DNA of 39,318 nt, taken from positions 1-39,318 of the forward strand of contig CALUTU010000005.1 in the NCBI GenBank assembly GCA_944323785.1. The letters are read 5' to 3'. The stretch is from an uncultured Bacteroidales bacterium (lineage in GTDB: Bacteria; Bacteroidota; Bacteroidia; Bacteroidales; UBA932). Made by a program: the position numbers and the translations under genes. Shown piece by piece: positions 3,415-32,636 of the stretch (its first letter is position 1; each line of letters begins with the position of its first letter). The notes beneath the pieces were generated by a model. The model saw only the letters and a list, made by a program, of their open reading frames with translations, did not search any database and was not told the DNA's origin.

Positions 3415-3445
3415 CAAAAGTAAAAATAATAATTAGGACTTGCAA
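3415..3445 (-). promoter_or_regulatory. Promoter of the rsmD operon
   Basis: On the minus strand, TTG (3443-3445) and TACTTTTG (3415-3422) are separated by 20 bases. The box lies 45 bases upstream of the first gene's ATG. Confidence 0.6.
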
Positions 3446-3453
3446 TATATTTT

Positions 3454-3461
3454 TAATTTTG
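3454..3461 (+). promoter_or_regulatory. -7 box (TAATTTTG) for the DHH phosphoesterase operon
   Basis: TAATTTTG matches TAnnTTTG and lies 20 bases before the chosen ATG at 3482. I find no clear -33 box at the right distance. Its position supports the start at 3482 over an in-frame ATG at 3440, which lies upstream of the box. Confidence 0.5.
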
Positions 3462-3481
3462 CAACCATAAAATTTATCCGT

Positions 3482-4507
3482 ATGACTGTAGAAGAACTGG
3501 CCCTGGGTTTTGAAAAACTGCTGGACGGGAAAAAGAAAGTGACCATTATCAGCCACTTCAATCCTGACGGGGACGCTGTCGGCTCATCTGTCGGTCTGAA
3601 CTGGTTTCTTTTGGAGAGGGGATACAGTTCATGCATCGTGCTGCCCTCCGCCGCACCGCCATTTCTGGATTTTCTGGATCCGGAGCATTCCATTATATAT
3701 TATACCGAGGACAAGAAAAGGGCAAAGGATGCCGTCAATGGCTGCGATCTTATCGTATGCCTGGACTTCAACAAGCCGGGAAGGACAGAATGGATGTCTG
3801 ATCTTCTGACATCAGCCAAAGCCGACAAAGTCATGATAGACCATCATCCCAACGCTGTCCGCGAAGGATTCAATATAGTAATATCCGATGAAGATGCATC
3901 CTCGACATGCGAACTGCTCTTCAGAGTCCTCATGGCCTTCAGGCACACTGGTGGCAGGGCTTCCAGCCTGAGTATCAAGAGCCTCTCCGCCATCACGGCC
4001 GGCATTCTGACTGACACCAACAACTTCAACAACTCCGTCACTCCATATACGTTCAACGTCGCAGCCGAGATGCTGAAAGCCGGTGTTGATTTCGACTTCC
4101 TCAACAATATGCTGTTCAAGAGATTCTCGGAATCCAGGATGAGGCTGATGGGACATCTGCTGAAAGAGTCTATGGAACTGGACACCGGGACTGAGGCTTC
4201 ATGTATGGTGCTCACTATGGAGGATAAAAAGAATTATGGGATTCAGGACGGGGATTCAGAAGGATTTGTCAACCTTCCGCTTATGATAGGAAACATCGAA
4301 ATTTCAGCGTTCTTCAATGAGACAGAAGACTTTATCAAAGTGTCTCTCAGATCGAAAGGACGCATATCCGTCAACGCTCTCGCCAAGGCGTACTTCAACG
4401 GCGGAGGGCATGAGCGGGCCGCAGGCGGAAGACTGTATATCCCGATAGCTCAAGTCAGGGACTATTTCCGGCAGTCCTTGGAACAATTCTTGCTGAACAA
4501 CCGATGA
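3482..4507 (+). CDS. nrnA: DHH-family phosphoesterase (NrnA-like oligoribonuclease / pAp phosphatase)
   Basis: This 341-residue protein has the DHH motif set: HFNPDGDAVGSSVGL at about residues 22-36, CLDFN, and DHHPN at about 120-124, with a DHHA1-type C-terminus containing FNGGGHERAAGG. The aspartates and histidines bind two metal ions, usually manganese. NrnA-type enzymes degrade short RNA oligomers and 3'-phosphoadenosine-5'-phosphate; other bimetal DHH hydrolases look similar, so the substrate is inferred. It starts an operon: its TGA overlaps the next gene's ATG (ATGA). The start was chosen because MTVEELALGFEKLL is the natural family N-terminus and lies just after a -7 box. Confidence 0.85.
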   Translation: MTVEELALGFEKLLDGKKKVTIISHFNPDGDAVGSSVGLNWFLLERGYSSCIVLPSAAPPFLDFLDPEHSIIYYTEDKKRAKDAVNGCDLIVCLDFNKPGRTEWMSDLLTSAKADKVMIDHHPNAVREGFNIVISDEDASSTCELLFRVLMAFRHTGGRASSLSIKSLSAITAGILTDTNNFNNSVTPYTFNVAAEMLKAGVDFDFLNNMLFKRFSESRMRLMGHLLKESMELDTGTEASCMVLTMEDKKNYGIQDGDSEGFVNLPLMIGNIEISAFFNETEDFIKVSLRSKGRISVNALAKAYFNGGGHERAAGGRLYIPIAQVRDYFRQSLEQFLLNNR

Positions 4508-5055: not shown

Positions 5056-6020
5056 CAATGAACATACTTAATAAAATATTACTGGCTTCAGCCACTGCAT
5101 TTCTGGCATTCTCCTGCGCGGAAGAGAAAGACGAATCATCCGAATCTGTTCAGAACCGTATTCTACAGGCATTTGTAGAGACACATTACCCCGATGCAAG
5201 GCAGACAGCCTCCGGTCTCTACATAATAGATTCCATTCCAGGCACAGGACGGGTCCTGGATGAAGATTCTTATGCATTAGTTGACTACACGATAACTTAC
5301 CTCGACGGCAGTTATTATTCATATACCAGTGACAGCATAGCTAGACAGCTTGGAGAGTATACTCCTTCTGGCTATTATCATCCGCGTATTCTGGATGTAG
5401 CCGAAAGCAACGCCGGTATAAAAGAGATTCTGACCGGAATGAAGGAAGGCGGAATGGTAAAGGCTATCATCCCGGCCACACTCCTGGACGGAGAAAGCGG
5501 CAGTGAGATAATTCACAGTGACGGTTCCTCCAGGATTTATGAATTTTATCTAAGAGAGGTCATAGGCAACGCATACGCTTACCAGGTCCAGCAATTGGAA
5601 GATTTCTCCGACAAGTCCTACAATCTTGATTCAACGGAATACGGATTTTATTTCACAAAGAATCTATATACCATAGACTCTTTGCAAAGCGGTGAAAGTG
5701 CAGATGTGCGTTACGTCGGCAAGTATCTGGACGGTACTGTTTTCGACACCAATATTGAGGATACTGCAAAAAAATACCGTATATATTCTTCTTCCAACGA
5801 ATATGACGCTATTTCCTTCAAATACCAGGACAGCGAGGAAGAAACTTTGTCTGCCAACTCATTTGTTGACGGATTCACAAAAGCTCTGTGGCGTATGGGT
5901 TATGGAGATCACGGTGTGGCATATTTCTATTCCGAGCTAGGATATGGGGACAACGGGAACAGCAATATTCCAGGATACGTACCTCTTTTCTTTGAGCTAT
6001 GGATTGAAGAGAAGGATTAA
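5052..6020 (+). CDS. FKBP-like lipoprotein with two tandem domains
   Basis: The protein has 322 residues. The signal peptide is MTMNILNKILLASATAFLAF, with the lipid cysteine at about residue 22 (AFSC). Two FKBP-like units follow. The first covers about residues 65-180 (ALVDYTITYLDG, then EILTGMKEGGMVKAIIP). The second covers about 210-320 (SADVRYVGKYLDGTVFDTN, then SFVDGFTKALWRMGYGD and IPGYVPLFFELWI). Periplasmic FKBPs assist folding of exported proteins. The catalytic pocket is not fully conserved by eye. The start at 5052 overlaps the previous stop; a second ATG six bases later is an equally plausible start. An in-frame ATG at 4881 lies inside the preceding gene and is rejected. Confidence 0.82.
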   Translation: MTMNILNKILLASATAFLAFSCAEEKDESSESVQNRILQAFVETHYPDARQTASGLYIIDSIPGTGRVLDEDSYALVDYTITYLDGSYYSYTSDSIARQLGEYTPSGYYHPRILDVAESNAGIKEILTGMKEGGMVKAIIPATLLDGESGSEIIHSDGSSRIYEFYLREVIGNAYAYQVQQLEDFSDKSYNLDSTEYGFYFTKNLYTIDSLQSGESADVRYVGKYLDGTVFDTNIEDTAKKYRIYSSSNEYDAISFKYQDSEEETLSANSFVDGFTKALWRMGYGDHGVAYFYSELGYGDNGNSNIPGYVPLFFELWIEEKD

Positions 6021-22892: not shown

Positions 22893-25382
22893 ATGAACGA
22901 GGTCGAGAAAGTAAACGCCATCTTCAGGTATGCCGGCGAAGAAGCCGTAAAGACAGGCTGGACAACCATCACCGTAGAGCACTTCATACTCGGGATGATA
23001 CGGCAGGAGGACAATGAGGCATGCCGCTTCCTGGAAGAGAACGGACTGTCCCTTCAACGCATCAAGGCCATGATTCTGGACCGTCTGGACAAAGGGTACT
23101 CCATCCCCTACAATGTATCCGAAGATGTAAGCGTCAGCCCCGAGCTCCGGCATGTCGCCGACACTGCCGCGTCCATAATCAGGATGCCAGAGGCCGGGCA
23201 CATTCCCGACACCATGGTGTTTTTAAGCGTCATACTCAAGGAAGGCACATCCTTATTCTCCCGCATAGCGCACGATCTGGGACTTGATTTCAGCAGGATG
23301 AGCCGATACGCCAAAGATGCGCCGGAAGCCGGGGAGAGCGGATACGGTGACATGGATACAGACGATCTGGAAGACGGGTTACCGGAGCCCGAAGGAGATA
23401 TTCTGGACCGGTTCGGATACGACCTGACAGCCGCTGCGGAGGATGGGCTGCTGGATCCTGTCATTGGAAGGGACAGAGAGATAGACAGGGCCATAAGCGT
23501 ACTCTGCAGAAGAAAGAAAAACAACCCACTGATAGTCGGAGAGCCGGGTGTCGGCAAGACCGCGATAGCCGAGGGCATCTCCATGCGCATCGCCGACAGA
23601 AATGTCCCGGTATGTATGCTCCGCAAAAGGATAATCTCCCTGGATATGGGAGCTATAGTCGCCGGCACTAAATTCCGTGGGGACTTTGAGGAAAGACTGA
23701 AGAGGATTCTGGACTCCGCACGCAGCAACCCGGACATCATCCTGTTCATAGACGAGATCCACAATATCGTGGGCGCAGGAGGCGGAGGGGGCACTATGGA
23801 CGCGGCGGCGATCATGAAGCCGGCCCTTTCCAGAGGAGAGTTCCAGTGCATCGGAACCACAACCTCGGATGAGTACCGTAAGATCATCGAGAAAGACGGA
23901 GCGCTGGCCAGAAGATTTCAGAAAATATCCGTGGAGCAACCGTCGGAGAGCATGACGCTGCAGATACTCAATAGCCTGAAAACACATTACGAGCAATATC
24001 ACAACGTAATCTACACTCCCGAGGCTGTCAGGGCCTGCATCACTCTGTCCGGAAGATACATCACGGACAGAAACCAGCCGGACAAGGCCATCGATGTAAT
24101 GGACGAGGCAGGAGCGGCAGCCTATCTGGGGCACAGCATGCCACCGGCGAAACTGAGAGCTATAGGAGACAGCCTTAAGGACATACGTGACATGAAAAAA
24201 GACTGTCTCAGGAGCAGTGATTTCGACATGGGAGTGAAGCTTCTGAGAATGGAGCAGGAACACGAGAGCGAGATGGACCGCATCACGGACAACGCTGTCA
24301 GGAATCATTCCAAGAGTCCTGTATCCGTCAAAGAATCCGACATCCTGAGGACTGTCTCCAATATGACCGGGATACCTATTAATAAGATGTCCTTATCAGG
24401 CGTATCCAGACTCCACGGACTCCGGCCGGCCCTGTTCAGAAGCGTCATAGGCCAGGAAAAGGCAGTAGAGCTGGTCGTCAAAGCCATCCAGCGCAACAGC
24501 GCGGGGCTGAAAGACCCCGACAGACCCATAGGCTCTTTCCTGTTTCTGGGCCCTACAGGAGTCGGAAAGACCCACTTGGCCAAGACGCTTGCGGAACTGC
24601 TATTCGGCAGTAAGGATGCCATTATACGCCTGGACATGAGCGAATATATGGAAAAGATATCCGTCAGCCGGCTTCTCGGGGCTCCTCCGGGATACGTCGG
24701 GTACGACGACGGGGGACAGCTGAGCGAGAGAGTGCGGCAGAAACCATACTCGGTAGTGCTGCTGGACGAGATCGAGAAAGCCCACCCCGACATCTTCAAC
24801 ATCCTGCTCCAGATACTGGACGAGGGACGGCTCACCGACAGCAACGGGCATCTTGTGGACTTCCGCAACACGGTCATCATACTGACTTCCAACATAGGCA
24901 GCCGCGATATAAAGGATTTCGGCAGGGGCATCGGATACAGCGGCAGCGGTGACGACCCCGAGCGGCTGCACAAGACTCTGATTGACAAGGCTCTGGGAAG
25001 AACCTTCACTCCGGAGTTCCTCAACAGGCTGGACGAGACCGTATACTTCAACAGTCTGTCCCGCAGCGACATGGCCGCAATCCTGAAACTGGAGCTGGCC
25101 GGACTGTACAGGAAGGTATCAGAAGCCGGATACAGCATAAGCCTGACACGCATGGCCAAGGAGTTCCTGTGCGACAAAGGCTATGACCCGGCTTACGGAG
25201 CCCGGCCGCTCAAAAGAGCACTGAGGAAATACCTTGAAGACCCCTTGGCCGAGCTCATACTGTCCGGCATCAAGAAAGGCGACAGAATAAAAGTGGACGT
25301 TGACAGCAGCGGAGACTCACTGTCAGTCTATGTCCCTGCCGCGAAACCGGCTGTCAGAATTTATCAGGACAGTCGGTTATAA
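22893..25382 (+). CDS. clpC: ClpC-type AAA+ unfoldase (ATP-dependent Clp protease ATP-binding subunit)
   Basis: The protein has 829 residues. An N-terminal Clp repeat domain (about 1-140) is followed by an acidic linker. The first AAA+ module has Walker A GEPGVGKT (216-223) and Walker B ILFIDE. A middle segment (about 415-470) follows. The second module has Walker A GPTGVGKT (553-560) and Walker B VVLLDE (621-626). The ring-shaped hexamer unfolds proteins and feeds them to ClpP. The ClpP-docking tripeptide, usually VGF or IGF/L, appears here as IGY (about 680-682). The last 29 bases overlap the convergent phosphodiesterase gene. Confidence 0.92.
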   Translation: MNEVEKVNAIFRYAGEEAVKTGWTTITVEHFILGMIRQEDNEACRFLEENGLSLQRIKAMILDRLDKGYSIPYNVSEDVSVSPELRHVADTAASIIRMPEAGHIPDTMVFLSVILKEGTSLFSRIAHDLGLDFSRMSRYAKDAPEAGESGYGDMDTDDLEDGLPEPEGDILDRFGYDLTAAAEDGLLDPVIGRDREIDRAISVLCRRKKNNPLIVGEPGVGKTAIAEGISMRIADRNVPVCMLRKRIISLDMGAIVAGTKFRGDFEERLKRILDSARSNPDIILFIDEIHNIVGAGGGGGTMDAAAIMKPALSRGEFQCIGTTTSDEYRKIIEKDGALARRFQKISVEQPSESMTLQILNSLKTHYEQYHNVIYTPEAVRACITLSGRYITDRNQPDKAIDVMDEAGAAAYLGHSMPPAKLRAIGDSLKDIRDMKKDCLRSSDFDMGVKLLRMEQEHESEMDRITDNAVRNHSKSPVSVKESDILRTVSNMTGIPINKMSLSGVSRLHGLRPALFRSVIGQEKAVELVVKAIQRNSAGLKDPDRPIGSFLFLGPTGVGKTHLAKTLAELLFGSKDAIIRLDMSEYMEKISVSRLLGAPPGYVGYDDGGQLSERVRQKPYSVVLLDEIEKAHPDIFNILLQILDEGRLTDSNGHLVDFRNTVIILTSNIGSRDIKDFGRGIGYSGSGDDPERLHKTLIDKALGRTFTPEFLNRLDETVYFNSLSRSDMAAILKLELAGLYRKVSEAGYSISLTRMAKEFLCDKGYDPAYGARPLKRALRKYLEDPLAELILSGIKKGDRIKVDVDSSGDSLSVYVPAAKPAVRIYQDSRL

Positions 25383-26163
25383 CTCCGTCCACAGGTAGCT
25401 TCGGGAACGACCTCTCATCATTGACCGTCCACACTTTCACTTCCTTGCCGCGCTCATGAATCTCATCGAGCAGCCTGCGGTTTATAAAACTGTGATAGAA
25501 ATTGAATGAAGCGACATATCCGTATTTATCCCAACTGAAAGACGTGAACGTGCCGTCAAATATCAGAGGCAGGCCAAGTACACGGCAGAACAGAAGCTTT
25601 TCCACCCGTATCTCAGGGTTAAGCCGATGGACTGTCTCTATCACACGGTCATTGAAAGACTGCACTACTGTATATCCTACGGAATTGTGCCTTTCCAGGG
25701 CCTCCACCACACGCTCCTCTATCCCCTCATACTGATGCTTGCGGCGCTTCACCTCCAGCAGAAGGCCGCATCTGCCGTCTATGAGGTCCAGCACCTCTTC
25801 CAGCGTAGGGATATGCTCGTCCGTCAGGGAACCGTCCTCACCGACAATCCTCAGCGAGCGTATCTGCGCCAATGTCAGGTCCTCTATACGGCCCTTACCG
25901 TCAGTTGTACGGTCAACTGTCATATCATGACACACCACCAGCGCGCTGTCAGCCGTCTGATGCACATCTATCTCCACCATATCGGCTCCGGCGGCCATAC
26001 CAGCCGCTATACATGACAAAGTATTCTCGTTTCCTAAGGAGGAGCCACCTCTATGAGCTATTATCTTCATATTCCTAACCTCATTTTCCGACAGACCCTC
26101 TGCGGAGCAGGCCGCACCCGTAAGCACGAGTGCGAGACACACCGATATCATTACATTTCTCAT
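25354..26163 (-). CDS. Glycerophosphodiester phosphodiesterase lipoprotein
   Basis: This 269-residue protein has a lipoprotein signal (LTGAAC, lipid cysteine at 19). The catalytic set of the GDPD family is complete: HRGG with His37 and Arg38, Glu46 in NENT, Glu64 and Asp66 in EIDVH, and His79. The C-terminal VKVWTVND and DGVITDCP complete the TIM barrel. It hydrolyses glycerophosphodiesters to glycerol-3-phosphate and an alcohol, here outside the cytoplasm. Its ATG overlaps the TGA of the large upstream NTPase gene (ATGA), so the two are coupled. Whether it serves lipid turnover or works with the NTPase is open. Confidence 0.9.
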   Translation of the reverse strand: MRNVMISVCLALVLTGAACSAEGLSENEVRNMKIIAHRGGSSLGNENTLSCIAAGMAAGADMVEIDVHQTADSALVVCHDMTVDRTTDGKGRIEDLTLAQIRSLRIVGEDGSLTDEHIPTLEEVLDLIDGRCGLLLEVKRRKHQYEGIEERVVEALERHNSVGYTVVQSFNDRVIETVHRLNPEIRVEKLLFCRVLGLPLIFDGTFTSFSWDKYGYVASFNFYHSFINRRLLDEIHERGKEVKVWTVNDERSFPKLPVDGVITDCPDKF

Positions 26164-29100
26164 ATTCTCACTTTAAACAGATGCCTGAACAATATCCGTA
26201 CCACCTGATTGAACCAATTGATACAGTCCGGAGCATCCGTGGCGGCGCACATCGCCTCATAGGCAAATTCATCCACGGCCTCCTCATTGACCAAGGACCA
26301 TATCAGGAAGTTGCCGAACTTGTGCGTGAACAGGTCGGACAGGGTCTCCCCACCCGGATTGTAGTTGAGTATGTCCTCACGGTATCTGCTTATTCCGGGG
26401 AACTTCAGGCCCACTATATCCTTCTTCAGGAAACTGTCCACCTCCGCAGGGAAATAATTTTTCGCCGTTCCGAGCAGCTTGCCCACGAGCGACACTATAT
26501 CCTCCGACGTGGACGGATACCTGAGGTCGGCACGGTTGTCCATCTCCTCCATTATCTTCACGGAATCTATACGCACGAGTATGTACCGGAGCAGTTCGAG
26601 GGCAGTATCAATATAGCCTGAGTCGGACACCAGTTCAGATATGTTGTCTATAAGATGCACCAGCAGCTCTTTGTCCCTGTTGTCTATCGCCTCATCCAGA
26701 AGTTCATAGAACAAAGGTATACCTGCACGTATGTCCTCTGCGGAACAGCCAGGGTGACGCGCACTGAAAATCATCGCATACCAGGTCATCACGTTCCGCT
26801 TATACAACTGCATGGGATTGGCCTTATAACTGTTGCGTGCCTTGAAATATCCCCGGCACCGTCTGGTCCACTCCACGCACCACCGGCCGGTCACCTCCCA
26901 CAGAGCGTCCGGGAATACCTCCGACTTCAAGCCCAGCTGATAGAGTACATAGATCATGGACATACGGGAATAGTCGTACCACTGGGTCTGTGCGAACTCC
27001 GGGGTAGACATCGCTTCCGTTACAGGATACATTATCCCGATGTCACAGAGCCCGTTGACGACAAGCAGCCTTTCCAGAGCCAGATACGTAAAACTGTCTC
27101 CGGTACGGTATGCGGCTATTATCTTCGGCAGATGGACGCCGAAGTCCGGGACCGGCAATCCCTTGCTGTAATACCGCGAATAATTGAACAGAGTACCGAG
27201 CACATCCTTCAGGTCCTCGCGGCTCCACTCCGACGAGACACTGCGGAGCGGCACCACGCTGTCATCCCAAAAAGACTGATACTCTATGACATTGTTGACA
27301 TAAGCCGCCTGGAACGTAAGCTGCCGCCTCAGTATCACCGAGAAAAACGGCATCAGGACTTTCACCAGCCGAAAATTCCACGTCATATAACGGAATATGC
27401 CGACTGTCCGGTCAAGCATAGGCGCCACCTCCGCACGTCTTCCGGCATCACCTGAAAGCAGGGCATCTATGATAAGCAGGACATTGAGCCTGGTGCCGAC
27501 CTCCAGAAATGTAACTGTTCTGGAACGCACGTCCTTTCCGGTCACACCGCCGATCAATGACCTGGAACGGATCTCACCATACATCCTATCCACTATCACA
27601 GACGAGATGTTCTCACGCAGCTGCGTATTGTTCAATGTCTTGTCTTTTCTTGATATATAGTAGGAGTACATGCAGGCGTCATTGCGCACTTCGGACACCG
27701 GGTCATCCAGAAGCCGCCACAGAAGGGAGAAGGGATCACGGCTGTACACCGCCTCGTTGTAGTAGTCCGTCAGGAATATACCGTTAAGCAGGGTGACAGC
27801 GGCCAGCTGACGCAGTTTCAGAGTCGGTGCCAGGACAGCCGATAGTTCCCGGTAACGCGCTATCGTTTCTTCCGTAGCCTTATTACCCTGTATAGCCTTA
27901 CTCAGCGCATTGAACTCCATCACATGCGTTTTTGTACAGTCGGGTGAGCCGGAGAGCAAATCCTCCTCCAGGCTGAAGAGTTCTTCCTCATAATTTTCTC
28001 CAACAAGCACGCTGACGGCATCATTGACTATGGCCGTTATATTGTAATCCTCTCCATAATGCGCGGCTAGATCAAGCAGCGTATCACTGCTCCCGGTCTT
28101 GACATAGTCCATTATCAGCACATTGCGCATGGCTCCCATAAAGACCTCATTGGTATGCGCCCTGGACACAGTCTCCACCAGTCTGCCTACCGGCAATGCC
28201 TTCCCGCCTGATTGTTCCGTTTCGGCCCTGTAATACACCAGAGCCAGCATATATTCCAGAAACCTCTCGTAGATAAACTGTATCCTGCCTCCCTGGTCAT
28301 CATGTTCATTCTCGACATACCTAAGGACAGGACGCTCGGGCTTGTTGAGAAGTTCTCCATAGGCAACGGATGTCCCGTCTTCCTTGAATATAAGTTCCGA
28401 CAGACGCGCCAGAGGGCCGTCTTCAGCGTGACGCAGCTCCTTGAAAGATATAGAGTCAACCGGAACTCCACTCTCATAGCTCTTAAGAAAATACTCGGCC
28501 ATGACGAGCAGTATCTCCTTCTGACGATTTCCGGCATAGGACGAGGCTATGTCCTCGAACATCCTGTGAAACAGGCTCAGGGAACTGTAATCGTGCATCT
28601 TCTCCGGCAGCCTCCGGCCCAGATAGTCCGTACAGGCTATCTTCAGCACCAGCGGATCCCTCAGACGGATAATGCTGCCTTTGGACAGCTCTCTGTACGG
28701 AGTACGCATCTGATACAGCTCGCCATAAATGGCATAAGCCCTCTCCGCCTCTTCCTGAGTGAATCCCCTGACGGCAGTATCGCTGTCCTCGCCACGGTCA
28801 TGGAAAAGTCCGGCCGGCTGCCTGGATGCCACCGGATAGATCACATTCTTCCACGTATAGCTGCGGCATGTGAACAGCACCTTGAACTGAGTATATCCAC
28901 CGGCACAGAATACCGAGCACAGGCTGTTGTACAGATCCAACGGCCCGTTTTCCTCTGAATCAGAGCCGCTGTAGCGCAGACATTCGTTGACAGCGTCTAT
29001 GAACACCGTAACGGTTCTGCCTTTCTCCAAGGCGCACTTGTGCAGCGCGTCCATTATCTTGGATACGGGTTTGCGCGGAGAAGCCCCGGCCACCCTGCGC

Positions 29101-30293
29101 ATCTTGTCCTCCAGACTGACCATAGAGAAATCCGAACCGCTCATGATCAACACGGCCTCTCCCCTCTGCATCAGAGTCTCTGTCCAGTGGCACAACTGAT
29201 TAGTCTTACCCTGTCCGGCCTCGCCCAACAAAGGGAACAGCACGGCTTCCCCTCCTTGAAATCTCTCCAGCTCCGCCGTCAGCTGCATTCTCTCCACAAA
29301 AAGTTCCTTGTTGTATTTCTTCTCATTGTACACTCTGCGGAGAAAACCGGCCGACTCGGCGTGCAGAAGGGCCACCCACTCATCCCAGTTCAGCGTATCA
29401 GATATGTCAAACGACGGCGACACAGCCTGCATATAGGCATCAAACTCATCATTGAAGACATCCGTAACCTTTCTAACAGCACTCTCGTTGGTGGATATGT
29501 GGGAGGTCTCCTCGTTGATGAGCGACTGGAATACGTATATAAAGCCGTTCTCATCGCAATATATTAAAGGGAACAGGTCCAAAAAAAGTTCTCCACCGGT
29601 ATAAATACAGTAATGTCCGGCAGGAATCCCTGGAGAATGCTCGGAAACCGCAGGAACATCACCCTTAAGACTGATGACCTCCCCACCGCCCCATGGAGCC
29701 GCGAAATATTCCGCGGAAGCCAATGGGGAAAGGGCCTCCAGCAACTCTATCAGCCGTGGTTCCATGGTATAGACCACTCCTTTGTATATCTCCTCCGACA
29801 AAGTGGTGCTGTGCCCCTTGTACTCATTACGTATCTGTACGATACCCGGAGCCGACTTTCCTCCGAGAAACACATTGTGCTTAGGACGCAGCACATTCCA
29901 CAGCGATGCGCACAGCGGATTGTCCGCCAGCAGTTTGGATGCAGCAGAAGCCAGCGGTGCCAGGATATCGTTGCACCAGTCTCCGAACGAGAGGGGCCGC
30001 TTGTCATCTATCTTCCTGATCACTTTGAGCAGCGACTCGTCCACTGTCCCGCTCTCCAGAGCCCGCTTGCGGAGCATCCCGAACAGGATGACGGATATGT
30101 ACTGGGATGCCGTCTCAAAGAAATCCAGGGTATAGTTCATCGCCTTGGAATAATGCTCCAGGGACATCTCGCGGACTATACCGGTCACAGCATGAGCAAG
30201 TGTATACGGATATCCGGCACAGGCCCTGTCAAACACACTCTCTATCCGCTGACGGTCCTCCCGGGTATATTGATGCAGTAAAAAATCTTTCAT
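26160..30293 (-). CDS. Large STAND-like NTPase with HEPN-like motif in its N-terminal region
   Basis: The protein has 1,377 residues. The helical N-terminus contains RNEYKGH at 155-161, which fits the Rx4-6H motif of HEPN ribonuclease domains. A beta-rich segment follows (about 205-265: GHYCIYTGGELFLDLFPLIY, then GFIYVFQSL). The NTPase core has Walker A GEAGQGKT (357-364), Walker B VTVFIDAVNE (428-437) and a VLFTCRS strand (472-478) like sensor 1 of STAND/NACHT proteins. The last 800 residues are helical, probably a HEAT- or TPR-like sensor. No membrane helix or signal is seen. Many STAND proteins of this layout are anti-phage sensors. The HEPN call rests on one motif and helix content only. 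Confidence 0.75.
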   Translation of the reverse strand: MKDFLLHQYTREDRQRIESVFDRACAGYPYTLAHAVTGIVREMSLEHYSKAMNYTLDFFETASQYISVILFGMLRKRALESGTVDESLLKVIRKIDDKRPLSFGDWCNDILAPLASAASKLLADNPLCASLWNVLRPKHNVFLGGKSAPGIVQIRNEYKGHSTTLSEEIYKGVVYTMEPRLIELLEALSPLASAEYFAAPWGGGEVISLKGDVPAVSEHSPGIPAGHYCIYTGGELFLDLFPLIYCDENGFIYVFQSLINEETSHISTNESAVRKVTDVFNDEFDAYMQAVSPSFDISDTLNWDEWVALLHAESAGFLRRVYNEKKYNKELFVERMQLTAELERFQGGEAVLFPLLGEAGQGKTNQLCHWTETLMQRGEAVLIMSGSDFSMVSLEDKMRRVAGASPRKPVSKIMDALHKCALEKGRTVTVFIDAVNECLRYSGSDSEENGPLDLYNSLCSVFCAGGYTQFKVLFTCRSYTWKNVIYPVASRQPAGLFHDRGEDSDTAVRGFTQEEAERAYAIYGELYQMRTPYRELSKGSIIRLRDPLVLKIACTDYLGRRLPEKMHDYSSLSLFHRMFEDIASSYAGNRQKEILLVMAEYFLKSYESGVPVDSISFKELRHAEDGPLARLSELIFKEDGTSVAYGELLNKPERPVLRYVENEHDDQGGRIQFIYERFLEYMLALVYYRAETEQSGGKALPVGRLVETVSRAHTNEVFMGAMRNVLIMDYVKTGSSDTLLDLAAHYGEDYNITAIVNDAVSVLVGENYEEELFSLEEDLLSGSPDCTKTHVMEFNALSKAIQGNKATEETIARYRELSAVLAPTLKLRQLAAVTLLNGIFLTDYYNEAVYSRDPFSLLWRLLDDPVSEVRNDACMYSYYISRKDKTLNNTQLRENISSVIVDRMYGEIRSRSLIGGVTGKDVRSRTVTFLEVGTRLNVLLIIDALLSGDAGRRAEVAPMLDRTVGIFRYMTWNFRLVKVLMPFFSVILRRQLTFQAAYVNNVIEYQSFWDDSVVPLRSVSSEWSREDLKDVLGTLFNYSRYYSKGLPVPDFGVHLPKIIAAYRTGDSFTYLALERLLVVNGLCDIGIMYPVTEAMSTPEFAQTQWYDYSRMSMIYVLYQLGLKSEVFPDALWEVTGRWCVEWTRRCRGYFKARNSYKANPMQLYKRNVMTWYAMIFSARHPGCSAEDIRAGIPLFYELLDEAIDNRDKELLVHLIDNISELVSDSGYIDTALELLRYILVRIDSVKIMEEMDNRADLRYPSTSEDIVSLVGKLLGTAKNYFPAEVDSFLKKDIVGLKFPGISRYREDILNYNPGGETLSDLFTHKFGNFLIWSLVNEEAVDEFAYEAMCAATDAPDCINWFNQVVRILFRHLFKVRI

Positions 30294-30300
30294 AGCCTTG

Positions 30301-30308
30301 CAAAGATA
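30301..30308 (-). promoter_or_regulatory. -7 box (TATCTTTG) of the STAND-like NTPase gene
   Basis: An exact TAnnTTTG match on the minus strand, seven bases before the ATG at 30293. It implies a very short leader. No -33 box is seen. Confidence 0.4.
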
Positions 30309-30355
30309 ATTAAAAAACTCTACTTTTATGCCCTTGTAGCACGATACAAACGACC

Positions 30356-31654
30356 ATGATTGTTTCAGAAAGCAGAGCGTTCCTGTGCGGGTTCTTCACA
30401 TCGGACAGGAGGTATGGAAAGAGATTGTCCCAGGACTGTCTTCCGGCAGGATGGAACGAAGCTGTATGCACCCGGGAAGAGACAGACGAGATGAAGGATT
30501 TTTATTACAGTGACTTCATCGATTTCATCTCAGGATGCGGAGACAGTAACGGGATACAGGTTTTCCGCAGAAGCCGCATGACAGGACTCACAATCCAGGT
30601 AAACGGTCACGAATACTCTTTCGAGGCAGGCGACCTGCATCTGTACATATTCCCTTTCAACATAGCTGTATTCTCGATAAAGACCGTCCACCGCAATGTT
30701 CAGTTCAGCGATCTTACCGCCGCCCTCGGTACTCTGCGGAACATCTGCTACTACAACCCTGACACTCTGGGCGGATTCACGGATGCCGTCATCCACCCGA
30801 TATGTGAGGTCTACGAGTGCCTGAGAGGGCCTTACTCCACTACATCCCGGGTATCTTACGACGGTACGGTCACAACGGGGTATCCGTTTCTTATGGAGAA
30901 CGGCAATAAATTCAAACTGTTCCACATTCTCGCCACTGACGAGTACCCATCCGGGGCAGACGAGCTGGACCGCAGGCTGTTCGAGGCAGGCACCCTGACC
31001 AGGGAAGGCTCTTACAACGGCGACGACTTCATGAGCAGTTCGAAAGAATATTTCGGCTCCACCATCCAGTCGTCCAAAATCTCGATTTTCAACAACTGGA
31101 CAGCCCTGGCCCTGTTCGACACCTTCACCATCCTCTCGGGATCCACTAAGGAATATCTGATCACAAACTGGGAGACAGACTACTTCGGAAAGATATACCT
31201 CTACTGCCTTTTCCGGAAATTCTACCTGTTCCGGCTCAACACCCTTTTCAGGAAAAAAGGCAGCAATCTGCACAATCTCAAGGATGAATTCATACAGTTT
31301 GAGAGAGAATACTGCTTCCCGAAAATATCATACAATTTCCTTCCGTGCGGAATGATGTCGCACATGGACGATGCCTTTGACATCGTCAGGGACAAAAACG
31401 AGATGCAGCACATGCTCCTTCAGGAGAACCAAAGACGCGAGGAGGCAGCGGACAAAAGAATGAACAATCTGCTGTTCTTCATGACGTGCCTTACGATATT
31501 CTCCGCAGTATGGGATCTCGGATGCCTCCTTGACTCCATGTATCCTTTTGAAATATCCATAGGCTCGACCATGATAGGCTTCCGCATCGTAACCACAGTG
31601 CTGCTGCTGATCACTGTACTGTTCGCACTTGTCAACAGATTCCGCAAGGGCTGA
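30356..31654 (+). CDS. Protein with CorA-like layout (cytoplasmic domain plus two C-terminal membrane helices)
   Basis: The protein has 432 residues. A soluble domain of about 360 residues includes NWETDYFGKIYLYCLFRKFYLF at about 266-287. A charged helix (NEMQHMLLQENQRREEAADKR, about 345-365) leads into two hydrophobic helices (about 367-388 and 400-427) and a short basic tail, FRKG. This resembles CorA-type channels in layout; the GMN motif is not seen. It diverges from the STAND-like NTPase gene with 62 bases between starts, so the two may form one module. An ATG at 30491 (MKDFYYSDFIDF) is an alternative start. No enzyme motif was found. Confidence 0.7.
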   Translation: MIVSESRAFLCGFFTSDRRYGKRLSQDCLPAGWNEAVCTREETDEMKDFYYSDFIDFISGCGDSNGIQVFRRSRMTGLTIQVNGHEYSFEAGDLHLYIFPFNIAVFSIKTVHRNVQFSDLTAALGTLRNICYYNPDTLGGFTDAVIHPICEVYECLRGPYSTTSRVSYDGTVTTGYPFLMENGNKFKLFHILATDEYPSGADELDRRLFEAGTLTREGSYNGDDFMSSSKEYFGSTIQSSKISIFNNWTALALFDTFTILSGSTKEYLITNWETDYFGKIYLYCLFRKFYLFRLNTLFRKKGSNLHNLKDEFIQFEREYCFPKISYNFLPCGMMSHMDDAFDIVRDKNEMQHMLLQENQRREEAADKRMNNLLFFMTCLTIFSAVWDLGCLLDSMYPFEISIGSTMIGFRIVTTVLLLITVLFALVNRFRKG

Positions 31655-31660
31655 GACTCC

Positions 31661-32503
31661 CTATCTGCCGCAAAGAACGTACTTCCGGCTGCCCAGATTG
31701 CATATCTTGACCCCGTCTACCTCATCCACTGCCGCTTCTGTACGGCATACCTGCCTCCCGGGGCATCCCGGACGGCACAGGAACCACACCGGAGCACGGT
31801 CTCCGCACGGTTTGAAGCCCAGCCTCAGATACGAGCGGCCGTCGTACCACTCCAGATCTGCATAGGTCATCACATCCATCGGGGTGCCGTCTCCGACTGT
31901 TGCGACAAAGGCATCAAGCAGCCGGCCCATCCCTCCGACCACCCTGACACCCTGAACCGAGGCATACCGCACCCATTCATACGAGACCGTACCGTCCTCC
32001 CTCCGTCTGCCGTCCGAAAAAGTAGCCACTGCCACCATCCCCGGAGTCTGATCCATCCCCGCCTCAGCATTTCCCGTAGACCTTATACGGAAAAGCCCCA
32101 GCCGGTACCGGGCCCGCGCCGAGCCATAGACATGATTGCGCTGGAGAAATGACGCAGCTGCTTCCGGGGTTACCGCACGCACCTCGCAGTTCCGAGCAAA
32201 CACCCTGAGTCCCTGCCCCATCCTCACCCTCATCATGGCCCTCACAGCCGGACCGCTGTTCCTCCAACGGTCCTCATACAGGAACATCCTGTCCGCAGCC
32301 GTCCATCCGGATATTGCAGCCCCCGCTGAGATCAAACGCTCTGCCGTACCTCCGCTACTGAAAAAGTCCAACGGAACGATGACCGCCGCCAGCCTTTCTT
32401 CCGCATCCACACATACGCCTGCACCGGACACGCATCTCCACAGCGGTTCCTTGCCCGTGCATTCCCGCATGAACGCCATCACCTCAGTACTAAATTCATC
32501 CAT
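31661..32503 (-). CDS. Conserved hypothetical protein, GNAT-like C-terminal half suspected
   Basis: The protein has 280 residues and no signal or membrane helix. Residues from about 115 resemble an acetyltransferase (GNAT)-like fold: FLQRNHVYGSARARYRLGLF, then MVAVATFSDGRR, SYEWVRYASVQGVRVVGGMGRLL, and MTYADLEWYDGRSYLRLGF. The phrase YAD-x-W-x-x-G-x-x-Y-x-x-LGF recalls phage-encoded and Mom-like proteins, from memory. The tail has several cysteines (FLCRPGCPGRQVC), perhaps metal-binding. It ends six bases from the convergent CorA-like gene and has no obvious operon partner. Substrate and role are unknown. Confidence 0.65.
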   Translation of the reverse strand: MDEFSTEVMAFMRECTGKEPLWRCVSGAGVCVDAEERLAAVIVPLDFFSSGGTAERLISAGAAISGWTAADRMFLYEDRWRNSGPAVRAMMRVRMGQGLRVFARNCEVRAVTPEAAASFLQRNHVYGSARARYRLGLFRIRSTGNAEAGMDQTPGMVAVATFSDGRRREDGTVSYEWVRYASVQGVRVVGGMGRLLDAFVATVGDGTPMDVMTYADLEWYDGRSYLRLGFKPCGDRAPVWFLCRPGCPGRQVCRTEAAVDEVDGVKICNLGSRKYVLCGR

Positions 32504-32560: not shown

Positions 32561-32633
32561 GATCTGCTAGCTCAGTTGGTAGAGCACAACACTTTTAATG
32601 TTGGGGTCTTGGGTTCGAGCCCCAAGCAGATCA
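32561..32633 (+). tRNA. tRNA-Lys (anticodon TTT)
   Basis: The acceptor arms GATCTGC and GCAGATC pair. The anticodon stem CAACA/TGTTG encloses loop CTTTTAA (anticodon TTT). The D-arm has AGCTCAGTTGGTAGAGC and the T-arm GGTTCGAGCCC. CCA is not encoded. Confidence 0.96.
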
Positions 32634-32636
32634 CTC

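Follow-up and report, generated by a model that had tools for sequence, protein, structure and literature searches.

The stretch of DNA considered here, referred to below as the window, comprises positions 1–39318 of contig CALUTU010000005.1 (C5) from an uncultured Bacteroidales bacterium, whose genome amounts to 1.97 Mb in 36 contigs and is 87% complete. It contains a cassette in which the gene for a large STAND NTPase with a HEPN-like N-terminal domain lies between the genes for a glycerophosphodiester phosphodiesterase (GDPD) and a CorA-like membrane protein. Computation shows that the three genes form a unit, that the STAND protein combines a HEPN-like predicted fold and conserved motif with intact NTPase motifs, and that the GDPD retains its active-site residues. 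We infer an immune role for the cassette, which is probably an anti-phage suicide system, rare and as yet undescribed.

Organization of the cassette

The STAND gene is an ATG-initiated open reading frame (ORF) of 1377 codons at 26160–30293 on the minus strand, assigned as a HEPN-STAND NTPase from its motifs, conservation, structure model and profile matches. A previous reading of the window, made from the sequence only, had proposed a giant STAND-like NTPase at these positions. The ORF and all of the named motifs were borne out (RNEYKGH at residues 155–161, GEAGQGKT at 357–364, FIDAVNE at 431–437 and FTCRS at 474–478), but the strand had to be settled as minus, the plus-strand frame across 26160–30293 being broken by stop codons. 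The protein consists of a HEPN-like bundle (residues 26–194), a beta segment (195–277), a linker, a STAND/NACHT-like core (about 346–560) and a C-terminal region that extends from about 560 to 1377 and that the sequence-only reading described as helices.

On the downstream side, the GDPD gene (25354–26163, minus strand, 269 amino acids) begins with an ATG that overlaps the STAND stop codon (ATGA). On the other side, the CorA-like gene (30356–31654, plus strand, 432 amino acids) is divergent from the STAND gene, and an intergenic region of 62 bp (30294–30355) is common to it and to the STAND-GDPD operon. Immediately ahead of the STAND start, the minus-strand sequence TATCTTTG (window positions 30300–30308) resembles the Bacteroidetes -7 element, which has the consensus TAnnTTTG. 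A sigma-70 promoter scan, using a consensus that we take to be unsuited to Bacteroidales, gave no excess of matches (6, vs 6.2 in shuffles).

Conservation as a unit

Fifteen window ORFs (15897 to 39252) were compared by tblastn with the homologue loci. Two of them, the CorA-like and GDPD genes, travel with the STAND gene in loci L005–L012, where the sole further match, at 29% identity, was to an AraC-type gene of L007. Every one of the 13 loci with a full-length STAND gene has the CorA-like gene beside it, divergent in 10 and co-directional in L006, L010 and the genome G255, where an ORF of 191 amino acids intervenes. The GDPD gene adjoins the STAND gene in 12 of the 13, L007 being without it, and in 10 of those 12 the two genes share an in-frame 4-bp overlap (one with GTG). 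The frame opened by the overlapping ATG of L011 terminates after a short distance, and the GDPD start lies downstream. Four of the 13 loci, those of the window and L002–L004, are nearly identical to one another and occupy a single site. L013, L014 and L015 duplicate the contig stretches of L004, L002 and L003, and each stretch was counted once. Mantel comparison of the distance matrices of the three proteins gave correlations of 0.79–0.91, to which shared host ancestry could contribute (L003, 99% identical to the window, was excluded from these and from the conservation counts given below). With partner genes beside it in every locus, the STAND protein is the middle member of a three-gene cassette and not the stand-alone sensor that had been envisaged.

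The limits of the cassette are apparent from its relatives. Four of the 19 genomes of the window's genus have the gene order GyrA-ClpC-[GDPD-STAND-CorA-like]-n31661 (the last being the gene at 31661–32503), and the STAND gene is open, without stops, in four of the 19. In 12 of the 15 non-carriers, GyrA, ClpC and n31661 are joined directly, the convergent ClpC and n31661 genes overlapping by 4–65 bp in 10 genomes and lying 5 or 15 bp apart in the other two. (Among the remaining non-carriers, G008 has no visible n31661, and G001 and G004 matched a ClpB-like paralogue only.) In the window, the GDPD gene shares 29 bp with the end of ClpC, and there are 6 bp between the CorA-like stop and n31661. 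The segment present in the four carriers and absent from the 12 relatives thus corresponds approximately to 25383–31660, and therefore the unit gained or lost is exactly these three genes, at one chromosomal site. Other carriers hold the cassette at different sites. GyrA, ClpC, PriA and n31661 were rejected as parts of the system, since they are unmatched in the retrieved flanks of L005–L012 and since GyrA, ClpC and n31661 adjoin without the cassette in the 12 non-carriers. The comparison supports a variable location, and therefore homologues are not confined to core, non-variable positions, an outcome that would have spoken against the sequence-only reading.

The STAND gene is rare and patchy in the sampled genomes. 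A scan of GTDB-based genome contigs yielded 11 distinct STAND loci, all titled Bacteroidales, three of them 99–100% identical and eight 43–53% identical in the best segment. Searches with the STAND protein found it in four of 99 relatives and two of 295 genomes of the order (own genome included in both), the second of these being G255 at about 30% identity. The STAND alignment scored in four of 395 genomes of the phylum, the window's own among them, and in three of the four the match was confined to the NTPase core; in a set of 149 relatives of G255, it found G255 alone. The CorA-like alignment identified four of 249 family genomes, which are the four STAND carriers, and two of the 395 phylum genomes (own included). 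Plasmids gave no match, and none of 57 pattern stretches in viral contigs was confirmed, the phage collection not having been searched.

The HEPN-like domain

In the structure model, residues 26–194 are predicted to form a HEPN-like bundle in which the Rx4-6H motif occupies a position typical of HEPN domains. The motif, RNEYKGH (R155 to H161), is encoded at 29811–29831 on the minus strand (computed from 30293-3(n-1)) and lies at the end of predicted helix 151–158 and in the loop preceding helix 167–187. An invariant acidic residue, E60, is found in model helix 48–81; motif and helices were related by position only, with helix numbering of our own assignment. Across 10 distinct sequences, comprising the window and nine homologues that are 29–50% identical to its protein over residues 1–345, there is no variation at R155, N156, Y158, G160 or H161. 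From composition, RNxxxxH would be expected 0.06 times in the protein, and the looser R-x4-6-H is common (4.8 expected, 8 start positions observed); the motif stands above chance because it is conserved across the family. Within the domain, conservation peaks at residues 95–106 and not at RNEYKGH. R155, N156 and H161 agree with the definition taken from part of the HEPN superfamily survey (PMC3710099), namely Rx4-6H with a polar residue after the arginine and family-wide conservation. No Pfam HEPN model matches the protein at E up to 1.

The assignment had previously depended on the one motif. It now draws also on the predicted fold, which is modest evidence, and on motif position and conservation, and the beta-rich segment noted at the same time is seen as strands at 195–277 in the model. 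The N-terminal domain is thus supported, by sequence and model, as HEPN-like, with putative RNase activity.

The NTPase core and C-terminal region

A STAND/NACHT-like identity of the core, as had been proposed, is upheld by motifs and profiles alike. The core has a Walker A motif (GEAGQGKT, codons at 29202–29225, minus strand), a Walker B motif and a downstream conserved arginine, and G357, G360, G362, K363, T364, D433, N436, E437 and R477 are invariant in the 10 distinct sequences, window included. The NACHT profile matches six of 11 family members at E up to 1 (best 1.2e-10), and nSTAND3 matches one member at 1.7e-9; the window protein itself matches only NPHP3_N (E 0.0097), under the cut-off. 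No solved relative of the STAND protein was found by sequence. The C-terminal region evolves slowly, and dN/dS for the STAND gene is about 0.07–0.14 in the five of seven pairs that were computable. For the CorA-like and GDPD genes, dN/dS is below about 0.22 in computable pairs (pairs with saturated dS were excluded: two of seven for STAND, one of seven for CorA-like and two of six for GDPD).

Among known systems, Avs2 (AVAST type 2) has a related NTPase core and a similar protein length, and the PADLOC Avs2 model matches residues 354–437 (E 2.1e-7). Membership was rejected, however: the NCBIfam model gives 20.1 bits vs a cut-off of 1000, and the PADLOC matches are confined to the NTPase core. 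Unlike Avs2, this protein also has a HEPN-like N-terminus and two conserved partner genes. The nearest NTPase cores by profile outside the family, among the 395 phylum genomes, belong to HSDR_N-STAND proteins of about 950–980 amino acids from other Bacteroidota (L076, L077 and L078; E 8e-25 to 2e-18). These differ in having a restriction-enzyme-type N-terminus rather than HEPN, and no cassette partner was matched inside their 11-kb loci.

The CorA-like protein

The 432-residue protein matches the PADLOC CorA-like model (E 9.9e-7). Its structure model shows a CorA-like arrangement, in which helices 344–395 and 405–431 follow an N-terminal alpha/beta domain, as for two C-terminal transmembrane (TM) helices after a long stalk helix; the C-terminus is of low confidence. 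Two C-terminal hydrophobic peaks are present in nine of 10 aligned sequences, L006 having one. Foldseek places CorA in the top ranks for the model with weak E values, and a search for solved relatives by sequence yielded a single chain (E 0.51). A GMN motif after TM1 is the signature of the CorA Mg2+ transporters. It is absent from all 10 sequences, and a true Mg2+-transporting CorA was rejected on these grounds.

Two further small proteins occur beside CorA-like genes. In G255 (L079, contig C37), the 191-residue protein between the CorA-like and STAND genes (5134–5709) has no Pfam match. A protein of 173 residues (L075, G390 contig C1, 8337–8858), likewise without a Pfam match, is 27% identical to it (E 3e-17) and lies beside a CorA-like gene of G390, in a 20-kb locus that gave no match to STAND, GDPD or any further part of the cassette.

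The GDPD

GDPD enzymes carry a catalytic histidine pair and metal-binding acidic residues as their family signature. The cassette protein matches PF03009 with 134.3 bits vs a cut-off of 23.6, its closest solved relative is 2pz0 (E 2e-54, profile), and its conserved residues are H37, R38, E64, D66, H79 and E137; the histidines and acidic residues among them are invariant in nine of nine aligned sequences. In these respects it resembles GDPD/GlpQ-type enzymes, from which it differs in being encoded within a STAND operon. At E < 1e-100, the cassette copy is the sole GDPD in eight of the nine genomes searched, and the ninth, that of L007, has distant GDPDs only. (The GDPD-containing chains 9eul and 9euf, also matched in the search for solved relatives, we take to be phage virion proteins, and they were not used as evidence for defence; a paper that mentions 9euf concerns a phage receptor of Streptococcus thermophilus.)

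Judged by eye, the N-terminus is lipoprotein-like in the window, and the protein looks exported in six of nine copies and TM-anchored in one. The L005 and L011 proteins have no signal sequence and would be cytosolic. Signal-bearing copies frequently have an internal methionine just ahead of (I/V)AHRGG, and the signal-less L005 and L011 proteins start there; a second, cytosolic GDPD start at this methionine is possible. Directly after the GDPD gene in G255, a gene for a calcineurin-like phosphoesterase (L079, 11062–12315) encodes a hydrophobic N-terminal stretch, again by eye.

Genomic surroundings

Of 14 flanking genes scanned against Pfam, most look like housekeeping genes, and neither an integrase nor a known defence gene was found among them. 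The carriers are thus not in recognisable defence islands, a setting for which the sequence-only reading had suggested that homologues be checked. In L007, the cassette adjoins a class-I tRNA synthetase gene (PF00579), a 92%-identical counterpart of which is found two ORFs beyond the GDPD gene in L005; in L009, it adjoins a FAD-binding gene, and a 74%-identical counterpart adjoins the cassette in L012. Elsewhere, it lies near PMSR, epimerase, PHP, histidine phosphatase or ABC genes. One neighbour in L008 (12901–13467) falls just under the cut-off for LPD3, a large polyvalent protein-associated domain (25.3 vs 27), and could be the sign of a mobile element at that locus. L009 contains, some 4.7 kb away from its STAND gene, a pair of small ORFs that resembles HigB/HigA.

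A search for direct repeats or att-like ends gave short imperfect repeats only, none framing the cassette. The window also has a tRNA-Lys gene (32561–32634), about 0.9 kb outside the CorA-like end and beyond n31661; it is not the insertion point. The 280-residue product of n31661 has no Pfam or NCBIfam match, and the gene is conserved, adjoining ClpC in the 12 non-carriers. About 21 kb from the cassette (3440–4507) is a gene for a DHH/DHHA1 phosphodiesterase-type protein, of what we take to be the domain family of NrN; no link to the cassette was shown.

Relationship to published systems

Bacterial HEPN-STAND proteins are listed in the HEPN superfamily survey (PMC3710099), and the protein described here resembles those fusions in joining an N-terminal HEPN domain with an Rx4-6H motif to a STAND/NACHT NTPase. 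The partners mentioned in the part of that survey concerned are TPR and cold-shock/S1, and neither CorA-like proteins nor GDPD are mentioned there. The part of PMC12255297 that deals with SAM-AMP pairs a CorA-family effector with a phosphodiesterase. The type III CRISPR SAM-AMP CorA effector, known from Bacteroides fragilis, likewise is a CorA-like membrane protein with a phosphodiesterase encoded next to it; here, by contrast, the sensor is a STAND protein, and the phosphodiesterase is a GDPD and not NrN. Cas10 models (TIGR02577 and TIGR02578, E up to 0.001) matched none of the 13 carrier genomes, some of which are incomplete (completeness is told for five, 83–95%), and matched four and seven, respectively, of 14 known genomes used as a control. 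A type III CRISPR link was rejected on this basis. No paper was found that joins a GDPD or CorA-like protein with a STAND/NACHT sensor, most subscription journals lying outside the search; in the portions concerned, PMC10975372 has gdpD solely as an antibiotic-resistance-associated gene, and PMC10910872 names CorA and NACHT together only in a figure legend, while CorA does not occur as a whole word in the main text of PMC12839542. HEPN-STAND fusions and the CorA effectors of type III CRISPR are already in print, and the partnering of a GDPD and a CorA-like protein with STAND was not found there.

What does the cassette do?

The reading that we favour, and to which we would give about an even chance, is a mobile, STAND-centred immune cassette of the abortive-infection type. 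The earlier proposal of an immune sensor gains from the HEPN and STAND architecture and from the variable location, and has to be recast in two respects, the sensor being part of a cassette and the carriers lying outside recognisable defence islands. In the sequence of events that we infer, the STAND sensor would bind a trigger, and its NACHT-like core would drive ATP-dependent assembly into an oligomer, in which the N-terminal HEPN domains could pair and cleave RNA through R155 and H161. The CorA-like two-TM protein and the GDPD, lipoprotein-like in most copies, would together provide a second, membrane-directed response, made up of membrane leakage and the hydrolysis of phosphodiesters or phospholipids.

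Could the cassette instead have nothing to do with defence? As a regulator of membrane lipids or envelope stress, the STAND protein would sense envelope damage, the CorA-like protein would handle cations and the GDPD would scavenge phospholipid head groups. The housekeeping-like flanks, the slowly evolving STAND C-terminal region, the low dN/dS and the ordinary-looking catalytic core of the GDPD would all suit such a role. It is nevertheless unlikely, given the rarity and patchiness of the genes (STAND in four of 99 relatives, the CorA-like gene in four of 249 family genomes), the presence or absence of the cassette as a unit at one site, and a HEPN RNase motif that is a poor fit to lipid housekeeping. 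Somewhat harder to credit is an immune effector formed by the STAND-HEPN protein alone, with the CorA-like protein and the GDPD serving as regulators or antitoxin-like partners. The lack of a GDPD in L007 would agree with this, and a divergent CorA-like gene in 10 of the 13 loci would permit separate regulation; on the other hand, all 13 loci have retained the CorA-like gene and 12 of them the GDPD, and active-site residues are conserved in the nine aligned GDPDs.

Yet another arrangement is suggested by the SAM-AMP part of PMC12255297, where a CorA-family effector is paired with a phosphodiesterase: a second-messenger circuit in which a nucleotide signal from the cassette or the cell would act on the CorA-like protein as membrane receptor-effector and be removed by the GDPD, as NrN does in type III CRISPR. 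The CorA-like protein does match PADLOC CorA models, and the signal-less GDPDs of L005 and L011 would be in the cytosol. We rank this circuit low, as the most doubtful of the alternatives, because the search, aimed at Cas10 and not at NrN or SAM-AMP lyase, found no Cas10 in the 13 carriers (within the completeness given above) and because the GDPD is apparently exported in most copies. In addition, the three cassette genes showed no recognisable cyclase domain.

Within the immune cassette reading, a more specific version is possible, and we put it forward only tentatively: an NLR-like system in which one STAND sensor would command three effectors, namely the built-in HEPN RNase, the CorA-like membrane channel and a GDPD acting on membrane-derived phosphodiesters, mostly on the periplasmic or outer-membrane side. 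The empty-site comparison bounds the cassette closely, so that cloning and testing the unit as a whole is feasible. The NLR immune sensors of animals and plants have their bacterial relatives in the STAND proteins. If the three-effector version is true, this would be the first STAND system with a lipid-type effector of the GDPD family, its CorA-like effector would act outside type III CRISPR, and two effector classes would be added to the STAND group.
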